A stretch of DNA of 39,695 bases, taken from contig JAFGPA010000019.1 of NCBI GenBank assembly GCA_016926175.1, positions 1-39,695 of the forward strand, read 5' to 3'. The DNA is from Microcaldota archaeon. Its GTDB lineage: Archaea; Micrarchaeota; Micrarchaeia; Anstonellales; Bilamarchaeaceae. Each line of letters starts with the position of its first letter. Position 1 is the stretch's first letter. Below the pieces are notes generated by a model. It was not told the origin of the DNA and did not search any database. It saw nothing but the letters and a program-made list of their open reading frames with translations. Both the position numbers and the translations under genes were made by a program. Shown in pieces: positions 17,115-29,501 of the stretch.

Positions 17115-18482
17115 ATGAGTTCTGATAAAAAAGAGGAGTGTGGAGTCTTTGCCATTTATTCCAAAACAGGTGCAGATATTGCTCCGCTTCTTTACAAAGG
17201 CCTTTTTGCATTGCAACACCGGGGGCAGGATGCTGCCGGCTTTGCAGTTTATAATGACGGCAGATTCTATGCAAGAAAAGGCCTTGGCCTGGTCAATGAC
17301 ATTTTCAAACCAGAGGATTTTCAGATTAAAGGAAACGTTGGGATAGGGCATACCAGATATCCGACAATAGGAAACTGCAACCAGTGTGATGTACAGCCAA
17401 CTGTTTATGGAGAGGTTGCCGTGGCACACAATGGGCACATCGCCAATTACGACAGCATAAAGGAGAAGCTGGAGAAAGAAGGATACAAATATGAAAGTAC
17501 TGTTGACTCGGAACCCATGGCTTTTGTTTTTGATAAAAACAGGGGGGATATTGAAAAATCTGCATTGGAAATAATAGAAACTTTCGAAGGTGCTTTTTCA
17601 GATGTTGTGATTGCAGGAGGAAAACTTGCCATATTCCGGGACAGGTTTGCATTGAGGCCTTTGGTGTGGGGAGAAACCAGGGATTTTGTTTGTTTTGCTT
17701 CTGAGAGTGCTGCTCTTGACATAAACAATATCCCATATTGCGGCAGCGTCCGTGGAGGGGAACTGATAATAATCAATGGAAAAATGGAGAGGAAATCGCT
17801 TGTTCCGGAAAACAGAAAACATTGCATGTTTGAATATGTTTATTTTTCAAGGCCGGATTCCACAATTAACGGACTCAGTGTCCATGAGGTGAGAGGGAGG
17901 CTGGGAAAGATACTTGCGAGGGAAGCTCCCGTAAAGGCGGACGTAGTTGTTCCTGTACCTGATACTTCAAGAACCGCTGCCCTGGCAATGGCCAATGCGT
18001 TTGGAATTTCCTATGACGAAGGATTGATAAAAAACCGTTACATTGGAAGAACCTTCATCATGCCAACCCAGGAAAAAAGAAGGGATGCTGTCAAGCTTAA
18101 ACTTAATGCTTTGAAGGAAGTGCTGCAGGGAAAATCAATCGTTCTGGTTGATGACAGCATTATAAGGGGCACTACCCTGAAGGAGATTGTTTCAATGATA
18201 AAGCAGGCCGGAGCAAAAGAGGTTCATGTCAGAATCACCTGCCCGCCTGTAAAGGCCCCATGTTTCTATGGAGTTGACATACAGACGTATAGAGAACTGA
18301 TAGCAAACAAAAAAACCATTGATGAAATAAGAGTTCATTTGGGAGCAGACAGCTTGTCCTACATATCATTGGAAGGATTAAAAGAGGCAATTGGAATACC
18401 GATATGCCATAGTTGCCTTACAAATGAATACCATACAGAATTTGTAAAAAAACAAGCTCAAAAAACAAAGGAAAGTGAATGA
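17115..18482 (+). CDS. purF: Amidophosphoribosyltransferase
   Basis: First committed enzyme of purine synthesis: PRPP plus glutamine gives phosphoribosylamine. The Ntn-hydrolase Cys is residue 9 (ECGVFAIY), so an eight-residue propeptide must be removed. The glutaminase domain shows RGQDAAGF and the phosphoribosyl domain the PRPP motif VLVDDSIIRGTT near 342-353. Cys237, Cys383, Cys431 and Cys434 fall at the places of the 4Fe-4S ligands of the Bacillus-type enzyme, so an oxygen-sensitive cluster is likely. Length is 455 residues. The stop lies one nucleotide before the pheT ATG, giving a purF-pheT unit. No other pur genes are in the window. Confidence 0.96.
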   Translation: MSSDKKEECGVFAIYSKTGADIAPLLYKGLFALQHRGQDAAGFAVYNDGRFYARKGLGLVNDIFKPEDFQIKGNVGIGHTRYPTIGNCNQCDVQPTVYGEVAVAHNGHIANYDSIKEKLEKEGYKYESTVDSEPMAFVFDKNRGDIEKSALEIIETFEGAFSDVVIAGGKLAIFRDRFALRPLVWGETRDFVCFASESAALDINNIPYCGSVRGGELIIINGKMERKSLVPENRKHCMFEYVYFSRPDSTINGLSVHEVRGRLGKILAREAPVKADVVVPVPDTSRTAALAMANAFGISYDEGLIKNRYIGRTFIMPTQEKRRDAVKLKLNALKEVLQGKSIVLVDDSIIRGTTLKEIVSMIKQAGAKEVHVRITCPPVKAPCFYGVDIQTYRELIANKKTIDEIRVHLGADSLSYISLEGLKEAIGIPICHSCLTNEYHTEFVKKQAQKTKESE

Positions 18483-18483
18483 T

Positions 18484-20073
18484 ATGGTTGTTGTTGAATT
18501 TGCCTATGAGGAAATGAAAAAGCTTGTTGATATTTCAAGAGAAGACATGGTAGAAGGACTCAATAACCTGGGAGCTCCATGCGAATATGAAAAGGAAACC
18601 AAAAAGATACTGGCAGAGCTGACGCCAAACAGGCCTGACTGGTACTCAATGGAAGGGCTGGCAAGGGCACTGCAGGCATATTACAAAAGGAAAAAATCCT
18701 CGTATAAAACAAAAAAATCAGAATATGCTGTTATTGTTGATAACTCTGTAAAAAATATAAGGCCGTATACTGTCTGTGCTGTTGCAAAGGGACTAAAGTT
18801 CAATGATGAAAGAATAGTGGACATGGTTCTGCTCCAGGAAAAGCTTCTTGGAACTCTTGGAAGGAAAGTGAAAAAATTCGGAATTGGAATCTATCCTTTG
18901 GAGGCAATAGACTTTCCTGTAAAATATACTGCGATGAAACCTGAAGACATACGCTATGTCCCTCTCGGCCATGGCCGGGAAATGAGTGCAAATGAGATAA
19001 TAAAACAGCACAAAAAAGGGCAGCAGTACGGACATCTTATCAGTGGTTTTGAAAAATATCCTGTTTTTCTTGATGCAAAAAAAAGAGTAATGGCATTAGT
19101 GCCGGTTGTAAATTCCGCTGAAACCGGAAAGGTGGATGTTGAAACACAGAATGTTTTTGTCGAGGTTACCGGAAATGATTTGAATGCCTGCAATGCAGCC
19201 CTCAACATATTATCCTGTACGTTTGCCGATATGGGAGGTGAGATTCATGAGGTTTCTGTTGATTATGGAAACCGGAAGATAAAATCCCCTGACCTCTGCC
19301 GGAAAACGGTTGCTCTCAGCACAGAACAAGCAAACAAAATTCTTGGTACTGAACTAAATAGTAAGGAAATTGGGGGGCTTCTTGCAAAAATGGATTATGA
19401 ATATGCCGGAGGGAAAGTAAAGGTGCCTGCTTACAGGGCAGATGTCCTTGGCCCTATTGATGTTATTGAGGATATTGCAATAGCATACGGATATAATAAT
19501 TTCAGGCACACCCTTCCGGATTTCTTCAGTGCCGGAAGCAGGATTGATCCTTATGACTCTGTAGACAGTATTATGCGTGGCATGGGATTCCTTGAAATAA
19601 AAACATTCATACTTACAAACAGGGAAAAACTTGAAACGGTAGGTTATGCTGGCGAACTGGTTGAAATTTTAAACCCAAACAATATTGAGTTTACTGTTGT
19701 CAGACCCAATCTGCTTGCAGACATTCTTGATATTTTCTCAAATAACAAAATGAAAGGCCTGCCGCAGAAATATTATGAAATAGGCATAGCAGGAAGCGGA
19801 AGCCAAAGGCTTGTTTTTGGCATTATGGACAAAACACTGCAGCTTTCGGATGTCCGAGGTTACCTGCAAACACTTGCAAAGGAGATGGGAGCTGAGCTTT
19901 TGTTGGAAAAAACAGAAAACAAACTGTTTGAAGAAGAAGACTCATGCAATGTTCTGATAAATAATAAAAGGATGGGGAGTTTTGGCAAGGTAAAAAAAGG
20001 GGTTCTTGACAAATTCGGACTCGGATTTGACATTTATATCTGTGAATTAGTTCTGGATGGTAAGGTTCAGTGA
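18484..20073 (+). CDS. pheT: Phenylalanyl-tRNA synthetase beta subunit
   Basis: A 529-residue archaeal-type PheRS beta chain. It has the N-terminal LTPNRPDWYSMEGLARAL segment, a B3/B4-type editing domain (RPYTVCAVAKGL, ISGFEKYPVF), the B5 domain near VKVPAYRADVLGPIDVIEDIAIAYGY and a class II-like catalytic fold at the end. The alpha subunit is not in the window, so pheS and pheT are separated here. The ATG at 18484 directly follows the purF stop with GGAAAGTGA ahead of it; a GTG at 18475 is a possible alternative. The end overlaps the convergent secreted-protein gene by 27 nt. Confidence 0.95.
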   Translation: MVVVEFAYEEMKKLVDISREDMVEGLNNLGAPCEYEKETKKILAELTPNRPDWYSMEGLARALQAYYKRKKSSYKTKKSEYAVIVDNSVKNIRPYTVCAVAKGLKFNDERIVDMVLLQEKLLGTLGRKVKKFGIGIYPLEAIDFPVKYTAMKPEDIRYVPLGHGREMSANEIIKQHKKGQQYGHLISGFEKYPVFLDAKKRVMALVPVVNSAETGKVDVETQNVFVEVTGNDLNACNAALNILSCTFADMGGEIHEVSVDYGNRKIKSPDLCRKTVALSTEQANKILGTELNSKEIGGLLAKMDYEYAGGKVKVPAYRADVLGPIDVIEDIAIAYGYNNFRHTLPDFFSAGSRIDPYDSVDSIMRGMGFLEIKTFILTNREKLETVGYAGELVEILNPNNIEFTVVRPNLLADILDIFSNNKMKGLPQKYYEIGIAGSGSQRLVFGIMDKTLQLSDVRGYLQTLAKEMGAELLLEKTENKLFEEEDSCNVLINNKRMGSFGKVKKGVLDKFGLGFDIYICELVLDGKVQ

Positions 20074-21102
20074 TACATATCCTGTTGAAGGTTGGCTCCC
20101 CACATAATCAGAAAGAACAATACCTGCCCACCCGGCCCTTGTACTAAAACCAAAGTTATATGGAGTATTGACCTTGATTTCTCCAAATGCTTTTGAAGCG
20201 AAAGATGCGTGCCCCGGAACTGTTTCGAGCTCAACCCCCTGGGAAAACAAAAATGAGCTTTGTTTTAGCTGGCTTTGTGTCTGAAGCAGAATAAACTCTG
20301 TGGCAAATCCACGCCCATCGAAAAAACTCAGGTAAACAGGTGTAATGAGAGACCTTACAAGATATCTGTCGGAAGACTTGTAATTTATAGAATATGTCAT
20401 GTAAAAAAAGTGGTTTTGCGGATCGCTTGCAATGCCCCCGCCAAACCGCTCAAATCGTATTGGAGGGATGTTTTTTGACAGTAAAGTCGGAATAAGGAGT
20501 TCAAACCCTCCAAAACTTCCATACCAGACTGTTGCGGTATTTGTACTTGAGTAAGTTGAATCGCGGGATTGCACAACTGTCTTAACTCCATAGTGTTGGT
20601 ATCTTAATGAGGCATAAATATCAAGTTCCAGAGGAGTTGCACCAAACACTCCTGAAAAAGAAGCTGATGGGGTGAAACTGACAACAGAACCAAAGCCAAA
20701 CGCTTCCTTTTGGGATTCTTCCCCGCTTGTATGATTTGTTCTTAGTATGACGTCATTAAGCTTCAGTTTGTCATATTTCAATGATATACCCATTCGAATA
20801 GGAAGGGGACTGGTTGGTGTTTTTTTCTCCATGTGTTCCCGAACGGATTTTTCATTGTTTTTGAAAAAATAATCTGCTTCTATTTCAAAAGAAAAATATG
20901 ATGCTGCCCTTGGATTTAAAGTGTGAAGGTAGTTGTAGGAACCTTCAGGCGATAGCAAAATAGAGTTTGGCTTAGAATCTACAAAATAAGTAGGATCCAG
21001 TTTATATCTTTCAAACTCTGTTTTTTTGGGTTGTGCAGCATTTAATGTATTAATACCAGCCAAAACCACAAAAAAGGCAGTTTTTCCTTTTATTTGCCTC
21101 AT
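20047..21102 (-). CDS. Secreted beta-rich protein, outer-membrane-barrel-like
   Basis: A 351-residue protein. The start at 21102 (MRQIKGKTAFFVVLAG) follows a GGTGGG site, and a TATA-like TTATAAATCC lies about 40 nt upstream. The N-terminus looks like a signal peptide with a cleavage site near LNAAQ. The remainder has repeated amphipathic strands with alternating aromatic and polar residues (ELDIYASLRYQHYG, HFFYMTYSINYKS, FGFSTRAGWAGIVLSDYV, GYVSLNLTIQN at the end), many Ser, Tyr, Phe and Gly, and no hydrophobic helices. This is the texture of a beta-barrel membrane protein or a secreted beta sandwich. No family recognised. An in-frame ATG at 21171 would give a longer product with a poor signal. 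Confidence 0.7.
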   Translation of the reverse strand: MRQIKGKTAFFVVLAGINTLNAAQPKKTEFERYKLDPTYFVDSKPNSILLSPEGSYNYLHTLNPRAASYFSFEIEADYFFKNNEKSVREHMEKKTPTSPLPIRMGISLKYDKLKLNDVILRTNHTSGEESQKEAFGFGSVVSFTPSASFSGVFGATPLELDIYASLRYQHYGVKTVVQSRDSTYSSTNTATVWYGSFGGFELLIPTLLSKNIPPIRFERFGGGIASDPQNHFFYMTYSINYKSSDRYLVRSLITPVYLSFFDGRGFATEFILLQTQSQLKQSSFLFSQGVELETVPGHASFASKAFGEIKVNTPYNFGFSTRAGWAGIVLSDYVGSQPSTGYVSLNLTIQN

Positions 21103-21203
21103 GCACCCACCATAAGACATAAACATTAACAACAAAGGATTTATAATCCTGGATTTTTTCATTAAAACCAACAGTTAATAGTGACCCCCCACACTTCCAC
21201 TAT

Positions 21204-21532: not shown

Positions 21533-22924
21533 TCATTTGAGTTTTTTTATGTATTTGGAATAAGTCACGAATCTTTCCACCGCTTTGACTGCGGCTGTGG
21601 GGGAGCTGTAGCTTGGTACCCCGTTTCTTTCAAGTATTTTTCTATATGCTTCTGTGTATGCCCCACCAACAGAAATTGTTGCTATCGGCTTTCTTCTATC
21701 ATCAGAAGCTTTTGTAAGAACATGGATAATCCTTTCATCCATCGGCGGCGTTTGAAGCAAAACAACAATAATAAGAACGTTTATTTCATCGGCATTCATC
21801 ATAATCTCAATTGCTTTTTTGTAAGAATCTACACCAGAATCTGCAACCAAATCCAATGGATTTCCTACATTTCCATATGGCGGCAAAATTTTTGCGATTT
21901 CTTTTTTTGTGGATTCGCTGAACTCAGCCAAATGAAGGTTTTCCTTTTCTACAAAATCAGTTGTTATGATGCCCAGCCCCCCACCATTAGTTATTATTCC
22001 TATTCCGTCTCCTTTTGGTTTTGGCTGGTTGAAAATTTTTACAATATCAAACAATTCATAAAGGCCATCAGCTTCTATTACCTTCGCCTGTTTGAATGCA
22101 GCATTGTATGCCATATAACTTCCAGCAATATTTCCCGTGTGTGATTTTGCTGCCGCCTGGCCTCCGCGTCCCTGGCCCCCCTTCAGTACAATAATTGGTT
22201 TTTTCTTATTTACTTTTTTCATAATTTCCAGGAATTTTCTTCCGTCTTTTACACCTTCAATATACAATATTATCACTTTTGTTTCCTTATCATTCATTAC
22301 ATATTCGAGATAATCACTTTCATCCAGGACCGTTGCATTTCCATAAGAAATGAATTTGGATATGCCGACCCCATAATATGCGGCGAGATCTATTATTGTC
22401 GAGCCAACGGCCCCGCTTTGGGTTATGAAGGCAATGTTGCCTGCCCTGGGCCGCTCAAGCTTGTACATCGGCAGAAAAATGCTGTCTATTTTTGAATACG
22501 GATTGAAAACCCCCAGGCAATTCGGGCCCACCACCGGCATATTATTTTTAACTGCAATTTCCCTGATCTTTTCTGCTATATCTGTTCTTCCACTTTCTTC
22601 AAAACCACTAGTGATCATTACAATGCCGCCGACTTTTTTCTTTGCGCATTCATTCATAATTTCCGGAATTGTATCTGCCGGAGTAGCAAGGACTGCACAG
22701 TCAATTTTGCCGGCAATTTTAGAGATTTGCGGGTAGCATCTTCTTCCAAGTATCTCGTCATATTTTGGATTTACCGGATAAATTTCCCCATCAAACATGC
22801 CTTCAACAAAATTTTTCAAGACAACATTGCCAATTTTGTTTGTTGTTGGCGTAGCTCCGACAATGGCAACGGATTTTGGATAAAATATCCTGTCAAGCCT
22901 TTTTACCATCATTTTCATAAACAT
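21533..22924 (-). CDS. acdA: Acetyl-CoA synthetase (ADP-forming), alpha subunit
   Basis: A 463-residue subunit of the enzyme that converts acyl-CoA, ADP and phosphate to the acid, CoA and ATP, the main substrate-level phosphorylation of fermenting archaea. It has the CoA-binding domain (SVAIVGATPTTNKIGN, VGPNCLGVFNP), the ligase domain FITQSGAVGS and the phosphorylated His262 in KSHTGNIAGS, then GIITNGGGLGII. The ATG overlaps the beta-subunit stop as TAATG with a strong GGAGG ahead. Acetate specificity is presumed; other acyl groups are possible. Confidence 0.95.
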   Translation of the reverse strand: MFMKMMVKRLDRIFYPKSVAIVGATPTTNKIGNVVLKNFVEGMFDGEIYPVNPKYDEILGRRCYPQISKIAGKIDCAVLATPADTIPEIMNECAKKKVGGIVMITSGFEESGRTDIAEKIREIAVKNNMPVVGPNCLGVFNPYSKIDSIFLPMYKLERPRAGNIAFITQSGAVGSTIIDLAAYYGVGISKFISYGNATVLDESDYLEYVMNDKETKVIILYIEGVKDGRKFLEIMKKVNKKKPIIVLKGGQGRGGQAAAKSHTGNIAGSYMAYNAAFKQAKVIEADGLYELFDIVKIFNQPKPKGDGIGIITNGGGLGIITTDFVEKENLHLAEFSESTKKEIAKILPPYGNVGNPLDLVADSGVDSYKKAIEIMMNADEINVLIIVVLLQTPPMDERIIHVLTKASDDRRKPIATISVGGAYTEAYRKILERNGVPSYSSPTAAVKAVERFVTYSKYIKKLK

Positions 22925-23547
22925 TACCTCCGGAACCTCACATCTACGATATCACAGCCACTGTGATCACATATAACCGGGTTCAAATCCATTTCCTTGA
23001 TATCTTTTTTTATCATGAATTTGCAGGTTTTAAGTACCAGTTCCTGGATTGCCTTTTTGCTCAGCGGGCGCTCCCCTCTTGCACCGTCTATTATGGGGTG
23101 TGATTTGAGCTCCGAAATCATCTCTTCTACATCCATCCCTTCAACAGGGCAGATTCTTGCACTGACGTCCTTGAAAATTTCAACATATATACCACCAATT
23201 CCAAGCACTACCATATGCCCGAATTGCGGGTCTTTTTTACCCCCGATAATCAACTCTACGCCCTTTCTTGCCATCTTTTGTATCAAAACCCCATCCACTT
23301 CAAATCCTTTGGCATTCTCCATCATTTCAGCATATGCTATTTTCAAAACTTCAGGACTTTTTATCCCGGTTTTTACCCCACCCACATCTGTTTTGTGTTC
23401 TATTTCTTTTGATATTATCTTCATTGCCACCGGATACCCCAGATCATCTGCTGCTTTTAACGCCTGTTTTTCATTTTTTGCAGTTTTGTAAGGTATAAGC
23501 CTAAATCCGTTTTTTTCAAGAAGTTCAAAATCATCAACCATAGTCAT
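22924..23547 (-). CDS. acdB: Acetyl-CoA synthetase (ADP-forming), beta subunit
   Basis: A 207-residue ATP-grasp subunit partnering the alpha chain. It shows AADDLGYPVAMKIIS, the conserved HKTDVGGVKTGI segment that carries the second phosphorylated His, GKKDPQFGHMVVLGIGG and the metal-binding EMDLNPVI near the end. Being encoded separately but one base from alpha gives the usual heteromeric archaeal form rather than the fused one. The 5' end faces the divergent histidine kinase gene across a gap that contains its promoter. Confidence 0.94.
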   Translation of the reverse strand: MTMVDDFELLEKNGFRLIPYKTAKNEKQALKAADDLGYPVAMKIISKEIEHKTDVGGVKTGIKSPEVLKIAYAEMMENAKGFEVDGVLIQKMARKGVELIIGGKKDPQFGHMVVLGIGGIYVEIFKDVSARICPVEGMDVEEMISELKSHPIIDGARGERPLSKKAIQELVLKTCKFMIKKDIKEMDLNPVICDHSGCDIVDVRFRR

Positions 23548-23642
23548 GGATTTACTATCCTCTCACAAAATTTTTAATCATCGTTATTTGATGGTACCCC
23601 ACAAAATTGCATTTGTTATAATATATATTAATTCTACAGTTG

Positions 23643-23661
23643 GAAAAAACGTTTATATATG
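23643..23661 (+). promoter_or_regulatory. Promoter block shared with the second histidine kinase
   Basis: The sequence GAAAAAACGTTTATATATG combines an A-rich BRE-like part with a TATA box TTTATATA. The identical 19 bases occur at 27730-27748, and in both places the block ends 26 nt before the A of an ATG that starts a PAS histidine kinase. The spacing predicts leaderless or nearly leaderless transcripts and fixes the start of this kinase at 23687. Confidence 0.75.
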
Positions 23662-23686
23662 TTCTGGAAGCAATAGTTACAGTTGT

Positions 23687-25261
23687 ATGGGTGGGGACAG
23701 CAAGAGACCAAAGAGACTTTCCAATCCTCCACGCAAGAAAAGGCCCAGCTCTCAAATAAAACTCCTCCGGCAGGAAGCAGAGCGCCGCCTTCGGGAAGCA
23801 GAAAAATTCAAGCTCATTCTTGAAAATATGCATGATGTAGTTATGCTTACCCAGAGCAACGGTACAATATCATATATCAGCTCTGCATCCACTTTTGTTC
23901 TTGGATATTCGCCGGAAGAGCTTGAGGGCAGGCAGCCCTGGATTATACACCCGGAGGATCTCCCTAAAATCCGTAATTTGCATAATAAAGCACTGCAGGG
24001 TCAAAGTGCCAAGGATGTGCAATACCGCATTATAACGAAAAATGAAGAGACAAAATGGATTTCACATTCATGGTCTGTTGTTTTTACAGGGGATGGTTCT
24101 GTTGAAAGCATTGTAAGCGTTGTGAAAGATATAACCGAAAGAAAACAATTGGAGGCGGAAAAGGTAAATGTTGAAAAAATGCAGGCCCTTGCAAGATTTG
24201 CTGCAGGAATTGCCCATGATTTCAAAAACCTTCTGATGGGCATTGATATCGGAATTTCTCTTATAAAAGGAACCATGAAAGCTCCCATGGACAGAACAGA
24301 CGGGCAGCTTCAGACAATCCAGGAAGCAACCGGAAGGGCCATCAACATGACTAAAAAACTGATGTTGTTTTCGCGGCTTTTTTCCAGAGACGCTCCAAAA
24401 CCTGATTTAAAACCGCTTTCGGTTCCAAAGGCAATATTCGACACGGTTAATTTTGCCTCCAGAACCCATGCAATATCCAATGTTGAAGTTTCCTATAGCC
24501 TTCCAACAGATCTTTATATTGTGGATGCAGATCCAATTCAGATCGAGCAGGTTTTCCAGAACCTTACGATAAATGCCGCCCAAGCAATGCCCGAAGGCGG
24601 CAAAATCGAAATTCTGGCAGAAAACATTGAGAAACAAGGGGAAAAATACATAAGAATCACATTCGCAGATAACGGCACAGGCATCAAAAAATGCGATCTT
24701 CCACATATATTCAAACCCTATTTCACTACCAAAAAAGGCGAAGGCACCGGCATAGGGCTTGCGGCTTCCCTTGAAATTGTCAGAACCCACAACGGCACCA
24801 TTCTTGTTGAATCTGAAGAGGGAAAAGGAACAACATTTATACTTGAGTTTCCTGCATCACAAAAACTACCAAAACAAACAGAAGAGGGGTCGCCTCCGCT
24901 CAAATCCAATTTTCGCATATTGCTTATGGACAATGAAAAGGTCATACGCGATCTTGCAGGCCGGGTCTTCCAAAGAATTGAATGCGATTATCTGACAGTA
25001 GCAAACGGCACGGAAGCAACAAATGCATATGCCAGGTCTCTTGAATCAGGCAATCCTTTTGACATTGCCATTCTTGACCTCAGCATTCCTGAAGGAATGG
25101 GAGGTGAAGAAGCAGCCCATATCATGAAATCACTTAACCCCCAAATCAAAATAGTTGCGTCCAGCGGCAGTTCGGATTCTCCGCCAATATTCGATGCTTC
25201 CCTTCCAAAGCCCTATCGGATGAATGAACTTATTCAGATTATCAACACCCTTCTTAGTTAA
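23687..25261 (+). CDS. Hybrid PAS histidine kinase with receiver domain
   Basis: A 524-residue soluble sensor. Order: basic N-terminus, a PAS domain at about 41-155 with the end motif VVKDITERKQ, a dimerisation helix with the phospho-acceptor His177 in GIAHDFKNLL, an HATPase domain (N box NLTINAAQAM near 290, DNGTGI, FTTKKGEGTGIGLA near 350), and a C-terminal receiver at about 409-524 with phospho-acceptor Asp464 in ILDLSIP and Lys508 in LPKPYRM. There is no TM segment, so it senses an internal signal such as redox or a ligand. The start is set by the promoter block ending 26 nt upstream; the upstream reading is rejected. It is a paralogue of the kinase at 27774-29501. Confidence 0.92.
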   Translation: MGGDSKRPKRLSNPPRKKRPSSQIKLLRQEAERRLREAEKFKLILENMHDVVMLTQSNGTISYISSASTFVLGYSPEELEGRQPWIIHPEDLPKIRNLHNKALQGQSAKDVQYRIITKNEETKWISHSWSVVFTGDGSVESIVSVVKDITERKQLEAEKVNVEKMQALARFAAGIAHDFKNLLMGIDIGISLIKGTMKAPMDRTDGQLQTIQEATGRAINMTKKLMLFSRLFSRDAPKPDLKPLSVPKAIFDTVNFASRTHAISNVEVSYSLPTDLYIVDADPIQIEQVFQNLTINAAQAMPEGGKIEILAENIEKQGEKYIRITFADNGTGIKKCDLPHIFKPYFTTKKGEGTGIGLAASLEIVRTHNGTILVESEEGKGTTFILEFPASQKLPKQTEEGSPPLKSNFRILLMDNEKVIRDLAGRVFQRIECDYLTVANGTEATNAYARSLESGNPFDIAILDLSIPEGMGGEEAAHIMKSLNPQIKIVASSGSSDSPPIFDASLPKPYRMNELIQIINTLLS

Positions 25262-27773: not shown

Positions 27774-29501
27774 ATGAGCAGCCAAAACAAAAAATCGAAA
27801 ACATCCAATGGTATTCCCGGAAGTTTCGAAGAGGCACACAAGCTTATACATACCAGTTCAGACAATGAAACCAGTTTTACGCGCAGACTGCTGTTTCCCT
27901 GGTTCAAAGGTCCCCTTGAAGAAGGTCCTCCATCAGCAAGAACGGTAGATCACATACGCAATAATGCCCATGCCGTGCTTTTTGCCCTGCTAAACAATCC
28001 TCTGCATGCCATTGTTTCAACCGATGATAATGGGGTGGTGCTGGGATGGAATCAGGCCGCCCAAAAATTCTTTGGCTATGAAGCTTCTGAAATTATCGGA
28101 CATCCATCATCAATGCTTTTTTCATCAAGATACCCAGTCAAGCATGGCGGCTGCAAAATTGAACCTATAAAAGGGATTCCATCGCTGTTTCTCGGCACTG
28201 CTGTTGAGGTTCAGGGCAGGCATAAAAACGGAAACGAATTTCCCATTGAATTGTCTGTTTCCTTATGGAAACCCGAACAGGTAACCAGCCTGATCTCAGG
28301 CGGCTATACTGCAGTAATCCAGGATATTTCAACCCGTAAAAAAGCAGAATCAGAAAAAAGAGAGTCAACAACCAGGCTTGAAGTTGCCCTGAAGGCCCTT
28401 ATGGAAAGCGAAGCCCACTGGAAAGTAATTGTTGAAACCAGCCAGGATGTTATAATGCTTACAAGTCCTTCAGACGGGACAATAACATATCTGAGTCCTT
28501 CATGTTCTTCAGTTTTCGGTTATGCCCCTCATGATCTGATAGGTCAAAGGCCGTGGATTGTCCACCCGGAAGATCTTGACCGTTTCAAAGTTCTTCATTA
28601 TCGTGCATTGGCTGGAGAGCCGGGCACAAATGTTGAATACCGGATAAATACCAAGGACAAGAAAATACGATGGGTATCGCATTCATGGTCTCCGATAGTT
28701 GATGAAGAAAAGGCAGTAGTGGAAATAATCAGCATTGTAAGGGATATAACCGAAATCAAAAGAGCAGAGGAAGCAAGACGTACAGAACTTAAACTGGAAA
28801 CTGCAAGAACAACTGCAGGTGGCATAGCCCACGATTTCAACAACGTTCTTGCCAAGATCGTTGCTGCACTTTCCTTTGCCGAATCATTACTTGGAAGAAT
28901 TAAGGAAAGCACCCCCCTTGCACCAGTAAGAAAATATCTCCAGACAGCTGCAACAGAAGCACAGCATGGAAGCGAATTAATTGCACAGCTCATGGCATTT
29001 GCCAAAGGAACCGCACTGCAGAAATCCGCGCTTTCACTTTCAGATCCAGTGGCAAATGCTGCAGCCTCCTGTATTGAACATGAAGACGGCATTGAACTTT
29101 CATGCGATTTCCCGAACGATCTTCCATTTGTCTGCGCGGATCCGGTTCAGATAAAACAAGTGATACATAATATAGTTACAAATGCGGTTCAGGCAATGCC
29201 TCACAGAGGAAAAATTGAAATCACAGGCCACGAAATATCACTTGGTCCAAACCAGATGCCCCAGCTGCCCGGGGGCAAGTATGTCAAATTATCCATTCGC
29301 GACCAGGGAATAGGAATCAGTTCGGAAAACCTGGAAAAAATCTTTGAATTTTCATTTACCACAAAAAAACAAGGGGACGGGCATGGCATTGGTCTCGCAA
29401 TTTCATCCCAGATAATAAAGGAGCACGGAGGACATATTGAAGTCGTGTCTGAATCTGACAAAGGCACAACATTCCATATCTATCTTCCTGTTTCTGAATA
29501 A
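27774..29501 (+). CDS. Double-PAS histidine kinase
   Basis: A 575-residue soluble sensor. A polar N-terminus is followed by PAS1 at about 65-195 (IVSTDDNGVVLGWNQAAQKFFGY), PAS2 at about 215-330 (DVIMLTSPSDGTITYLSP, IVRDITEIKRAEE), His353 in GGIAHDFNNVLAK and an HATPase domain (NIVTNAVQAM, DQGIGI, FTTKKQGDGHGIGLA). It ends after the HATPase without a receiver. PAS2 and the kinase core closely resemble the PAS and core of the kinase at 23687-25261, so the two are paralogues. A natural possibility is that it phosphorylates the receiver attached to its sibling. No TM segment. Confidence 0.93.
   Translation: MSSQNKKSKTSNGIPGSFEEAHKLIHTSSDNETSFTRRLLFPWFKGPLEEGPPSARTVDHIRNNAHAVLFALLNNPLHAIVSTDDNGVVLGWNQAAQKFFGYEASEIIGHPSSMLFSSRYPVKHGGCKIEPIKGIPSLFLGTAVEVQGRHKNGNEFPIELSVSLWKPEQVTSLISGGYTAVIQDISTRKKAESEKRESTTRLEVALKALMESEAHWKVIVETSQDVIMLTSPSDGTITYLSPSCSSVFGYAPHDLIGQRPWIVHPEDLDRFKVLHYRALAGEPGTNVEYRINTKDKKIRWVSHSWSPIVDEEKAVVEIISIVRDITEIKRAEEARRTELKLETARTTAGGIAHDFNNVLAKIVAALSFAESLLGRIKESTPLAPVRKYLQTAATEAQHGSELIAQLMAFAKGTALQKSALSLSDPVANAAASCIEHEDGIELSCDFPNDLPFVCADPVQIKQVIHNIVTNAVQAMPHRGKIEITGHEISLGPNQMPQLPGGKYVKLSIRDQGIGISSENLEKIFEFSFTTKKQGDGHGIGLAISSQIIKEHGGHIEVVSESDKGTTFHIYLPVSE

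Follow-up and report, generated by a model that had tools for sequence, protein, structure and literature searches.

A barrel-like secreted protein of a Micrarchaeota archaeon and its relatives in a genus-wide operon

The locus and the start of the gene

The window, by which we mean the whole stretch of 39,695 nucleotides that was analysed, is contig 24 of a 1.05-Mb genome in 39 contigs (93% complete, 0.4% contamination). Its gene of interest, P0001, had been described in an earlier note, made without database searches, as encoding a secreted protein resembling a bacterial outer-membrane barrel. Translation showed the open reading frame of 351 codons to be present on the minus strand as that note had placed it, and it is not a chance frame because relatives occur in other genomes. 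It converges with the gene for the beta subunit of phenylalanyl-tRNA synthetase, the two ends overlapping by 27 bp, and on its other side lies a gene for an acetyl-CoA synthetase (ADP-forming)-type alpha subunit (Table 1). No significant match to P0001 was found in Pfam, PDB sequences, NCBIfam or phage records. A phage or viral origin was considered and rejected, since those phage records, and the viral contigs searched with a profile of the long form of the family, gave no match.

Residues 1-23 have a basic n-region, a hydrophobic h-region and an end of small residues. No predictor was applied, and the signal peptide claimed in the earlier note is therefore supported only as a signal-like N-terminus recognised by inspection. 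The ATG chosen there, which has a Shine-Dalgarno-like GGTGG (an inferred assignment) 4 nt upstream, is a better start than the TTG at 21171, which would add a second hydrophobic stretch in front of the first. The in-frame extension between the two contains a near-lipobox as well as a hydrophobic stretch of its own; it is likely to be untranslated, although translation cannot be excluded. Elsewhere in the window there are two PAS-containing histidine kinases, in a DPANN genome of 1 Mb, and one of them carries a fused receiver domain.

Table 1. Features of the window and of related loci. Positions without a prefix are those of the window; a prefix (L) denotes another locus.
Feature	Position	Strand	Basis
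P0001 gene, 351-aa barrel-like secreted protein	20047-21102	-	Translation, relatives in genus, AlphaFold2
P0001 start codon, ATG	21100-21102	-	
Signal-peptide-like N-terminus, residues 1-23, MRQIKGKTAFFVVLAGINTLNAA	21034-21102	-	Inspection of sequence only
GGTGG, Shine-Dalgarno-like	21107-21111	-	Sequence; inference
In-frame upstream extension, MVLMKKSRIINPLLLMFMSYGGC	21103-21171	-	
Barrel domain, residues 65-350, 13 predicted amphipathic strands	20053-20910	-	AlphaFold2, Foldseek, periodicity tests
C-terminal strand, TGYVSLNLTIQN	20050-20085	-	Alignments; AlphaFold2 strand 340-350
Phenylalanyl-tRNA synthetase beta	18475-20073	+	
Acetyl-CoA synthetase (ADP-forming)-type alpha subunit	21533-22924	-	
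PAS-containing histidine kinases	23546-25261, 27774-29501	+	
Operon in host genome (contig 32)	L039:242-9777		
Operon in other loci	L034, L037, L038, L043-L048, L078, L082-L088		
Tandem barrel pairs	L034:7721-11953, L035:7734-11947, L036:1687-5937, L038:1005-5084		
Small signal-peptide-like ORF	L044:4493-4707, L045:7664-7908, L043:7647-7914, L037:9796-10031, L046:7031-7261, L047, L048		
Array of five related genes	L037:292-4910	one strand	

Predicted fold and strand periodicity

AlphaFold2 produced a meander of 13 strands, each of 11-25 residues, between residues 65 and 350, with residues 1-66 unstructured or of low confidence. Confidence in the model was moderate (pLDDT 61, pTM 0.58) and it rests on only 10 sequences, taken from the window and from related loci. 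When the model was compared with the PDB using Foldseek, there were 15 matches at E ≤ 1e-3, every one a bacterial outer-membrane protein (OMP) barrel; they included OmpU (the best, E 1.6e-5), FadL, the BamA barrel, Omp32 and an autotransporter domain. All 50 of the listed matches were outer-membrane or secretin barrels, with no soluble fold among them. A sequence search of the PDB with the family matched nothing. The TM score against OmpG (0.63-0.66 of the OmpG length) suggests a barrel shape in the predicted structure, but closure of that barrel is only inferred, because the coordinates of the model could not be inspected. The number of modelled strands is odd, whereas closed OMP barrels usually have an even number.

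A long relative of 649 amino acids, L034, was modelled separately with higher confidence (pLDDT 79), giving a helical region to residue 309 followed by 13 strands. Its PDB matches were weaker than those of P0001 (best E 5.8e-3), and mostly OMPs again. Both models thus meet a criterion for OMPs of at least eight long amphipathic strands in an antiparallel meander. The outer-membrane-barrel-like pattern claimed earlier is therefore supported by the model and its fold matches, and neither a confident soluble sandwich nor a confident helical fold, either of which would have counted against it, was obtained. The length given for the strands, about 320 residues, held only in part and was slightly generous, as they span about 290; the strand-like C-terminal end held, being strand 340-350 of the model and coinciding with GxLN[LI]TLT in the aligned relatives.

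The periodicity of the sequence was OMP-like. The difference in hydrophobicity between the two faces of the P0001 strands exceeded that in within-strand shuffles (p = 0.005), a result conditional on the AlphaFold2 model, and residues 57-351 taken as a whole also alternated more than their shuffles (p = 0.03). Ten barrels of the family gave beta-periodicity z values of 1.4-4.3. The E. coli proteins run for comparison gave 1.3-4.7 (seven OMPs) and -0.9 to 1.0 (six secreted soluble proteins). The aromatic content of the family barrels was 10-15%, which is also OMP-like. The Cys-rich protein encoded next to the main family member (c2, below) had a low z in one species but reached 2-3 in some others, so a barrel cannot be recognised among beta proteins by periodicity alone. 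The Pfam family OMP_b-brl (PF13505) matched one of 11 family members weakly (E 3e-4). It had no match in a whole-genome search of the 17 congeners, and the lone match therefore gives no family assignment.

P0001 ends in LTIQN, with a terminal Asn and without the C-terminal aromatic residue of the OMP beta-signal. The canonical PoXGXXHyXHy signal was looked for by inspection and rejected, as GYVSLNLTI is out of phase with it. Six of the nine proteins, family members or syntenic, whose chain stops at the last strand have Phe or Trp at the terminus, against 4.4% of background ORFs (binomial probability about 6e-7); the set of nine was chosen after the fact.

Relatives, operon and assembly genes

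A search of 99 related genomes with the single P0001 sequence gave matches confined to its own genus. With a profile of the barrel domain, relatives were found in 13 of the 17 genomes of the genus; across 295 genomes of the phylum, the only further genus with a match was one from the same family. The host genome contains three divergent copies. Besides P0001 these are a protein of 711 aa (contig 32) and one of 413 aa (contig 26), the latter with a signal-peptide-like start. Such starts are also present in the contig-32 copy, in P0001 and in L010 and L032, these three last being short, variable, stand-alone copies. The relatives come from independent metagenome-assembled genomes, the named ones being of Candidatus Micrarchaeota, on contigs of up to 302 kb where they adjoin archaeal genes. 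The archaeal setting, which the earlier note had wished to see checked through homologues and binning, held on all these points and on the 0.4% contamination; the source of P0001 is archaeal, and its contig is not a stray bacterial one.

The main member of the family is the middle gene of a conserved three-gene operon that is shown in the genus and recurs through the family and into some of the order. The first gene encodes a giant protein (about 1080-1840 aa) with an N-terminal hydrophobic segment, often preceded by an HLNS-like motif, and the second a helical domain joined to the barrel (the long form). The third encodes c2, which is secreted and rich in Cys, is about 700-1130 aa long and in most species has a conserved C-terminal end of the CWE[FY] type. 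After c2 there are often a beta-CASP gene and an ACT-domain gene; the former is an aCPSF1-type archaeal nuclease (TIGR03675, E 7e-117), often convergent with the operon. Four relatives have tandem barrel genes, of which copy A has a signal-peptide-like start and copy B lacks one. One operon lies beside an array of five related genes on one strand, four encoding about 255 aa and one 529 aa. None of the barrel, giant or c2 proteins matched the S-layer families, and neither the family nor the operon was found in the literature searched.

The c2 profile found members in 16 of the 17 congeners and in 36 of 99 relatives across the family and order. In the other genera a middle gene adjacent to c2 is usual, yet it is not recognised by the barrel profile. 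The last 320 residues of these middle proteins gave z values of 2-4 in L082-L085, L087 and L091 and lower ones in L086 and L090, with L080 an exception at -1. Profile-profile comparison of the genus family with L082, L083, L085 and L090 detected no homology; the orthology of these four therefore rests on position, and apart from that they are tied to the genus family only by the neighbouring c2 and by periodicity.

In most congeners the operon barrel begins with MAQ or MGG, without an in-frame signal peptide and with an in-frame stop just upstream. The roughly 200 nt in front of it contain a conserved small ORF, which has a basic start and a hydrophobic segment rich in Ala and ends in an APIPxAFTI-like sequence; in the genome of the window the corresponding stretch and the barrel form a single reading frame. 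A hairpin (CCATYAG..TTCAC/GTGACTR..ATGG) that is conserved spans the end of the small ORF together with the ribosome site (GGTGA) and the ATG start codon of the barrel gene, with 96% of the cells paired in seven genomes and one compensatory pair. The arrangement resembles translational coupling, with the export of the separate barrel unexplained. A programmed frameshift joining the small ORF to the barrel was rejected, since the shift required would be +1 in some genomes and -1 in others.

None of the BamA-like assembly genes that the earlier note had suggested seeking was found. Omp85 (PF01103) was absent from all 45 genomes searched, which included the host genome and all congeners, and POTRA (PF07244) from all 99; diderm bacterial controls were positive for both. 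P0001 itself matched neither. The genomes are incomplete, but gaps do not explain an absence from every one of them. The known assembly route is thus removed, in line with a survey of Omp85 and TpsB proteins which found none in archaea (PMC4104836).

A probable membrane-type barrel and its alternatives

Transmembrane beta-barrels are generally seen as a property of diderm bacteria and of the organelles derived from them. P0001 and its family resemble the bacterial OMPs (OmpG, OmpU, FadL, Omp32 and the autotransporter barrels) in the signal-like N-terminus of P0001, which most operon barrels lack in frame, in a meander of long amphipathic strands reaching the C-terminus, in periodicity and aromatic content, and in having OMPs as their best PDB fold matches. 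They differ in being archaeal, in lacking detectable sequence homology to solved OMPs and in lacking Omp85 and POTRA, and P0001 differs further in its 13 modelled strands and its terminal Asn. The PopA superfamily has 16 strands, a plug and an oligomerising loop 8 (PMC12228718), whereas the P0001 model has 13 strands and no plug domain, and in the fold search with the long form, L034, the PopA structure 9ga1 came no higher than rank 31 (E 0.06). OMP_b-brl is like the family in its weak match to one member and unlike it in its absence from the congeners. Among the S-layer and envelope proteins of DPANN and Micrarchaeota, the similarity is to c2, which is of a Cys-rich, secreted, surface type.

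On balance we favour, by a modest margin, the reading of P0001 as an OMP-type beta-barrel inserted in a membrane; closure, insertion and function are all inferred. Against it stand the moderate confidence of the P0001 model, the odd strand count, the weak best match of the long form, the limited specificity of periodicity, the loss of the known assembly route, the terminal Asn of P0001, the lack of an in-frame signal peptide in most operon barrels and the S-layer described as the outer layer of ARM-1 (PMC11329633). In this reading it would be an exported, single-chain, up-and-down barrel of transmembrane type, encoded alone as a short form of a family specific to its lineage. Export would be by Sec, and the barrel would most likely sit in or span the outer layer of the archaeal envelope, as a pore or as a surface anchor or protein. 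Its route of assembly is unknown; a role as insertase or chaperone could most naturally fall to the giant protein or to c2. The earlier suggestion of a pore, an adhesin or a host-contact protein remains undecided among the three. Since Omp85 is missing, P0001 lacks the C-terminal aromatic, and both its closure and its location are only inferred, we would not class it among the bacterial OMPs.

A bolder reading is that members of an order of Micrarchaeota have a true outer membrane or an equivalent lipid layer, with their own barrels, a three-gene envelope operon and assembly independent of Omp85. We think it less likely than not. An inner and an outer membrane with a periplasm have been described in cells of ARMAN, a group to which Micrarchaeota belong (PMC4243693), and two membranes were also reported in PMC8871954; these descriptions count for the membrane-type reading as well. 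A possible distal relative of PopA has been mentioned in Candidatus Altiarchaeales (PMC12228718). Given these reports, barrels in DPANN are not an entirely new idea.

The strongest alternative, which remains possible, is a non-membrane envelope protein, that is a large soluble beta-barrel or layered sheet in an S-layer or coat together with the giant protein and c2. In its favour are the nature of c2 (secreted, Cys-rich, with the CWE[FY]-type end), the periodicity that some beta-rich c2 proteins share with the barrels, the absence of Omp85, and the outer layer of the cultured micrarchaeon ARM-1, described from cryo-ET as an S-layer that is hexagonal and has a pore at its centre (PMC11329633). 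Against it, no soluble fold appears in the list of matches, the lumen of a 13-stranded barrel would on structural reasoning be too wide for a packed hydrophobic core, and several relatives end in Phe or Trp.

It is unlikely that the barrel acts in the membrane of another cell or in vesicles, where an episymbiont would use it as a secreted pore or for contact with its host. In favour of this, DPANN in culture live as ectosymbionts and depend on a host (PMC11291902), there are several secreted paralogues per genome, and the short stand-alone copies are variable. However, the main copy is in a stable, genus-wide operon near housekeeping genes, which looks more like structural envelope than effector, and no toxin-like domain was matched.

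Recent transfer from a diderm bacterium is very unlikely and contamination is ruled out: OMPs are otherwise bacterial or organellar and one member matches OMP_b-brl weakly, but there are three divergent paralogues in the bin, relatives in most congeners on long contigs, an archaeal nuclease flanking the operon and no Pfam family assignment. A lipoyl-ligase-like (LplA-B_cat) or other soluble enzyme is all but excluded, as the PF21948 match of P0001 (E 0.016, 15.6 bits) is below the 27-bit Pfam gathering threshold, is confined to one member and conflicts with the strand-only model.

If the membrane-type reading is true, a conserved, multi-copy archaeal barrel family without detectable Omp85 would mean either an independent origin or an unknown insertase. 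The family would then mark the disputed outer membrane of ARMAN and Micrarchaeota, and it makes the question of that membrane directly testable.
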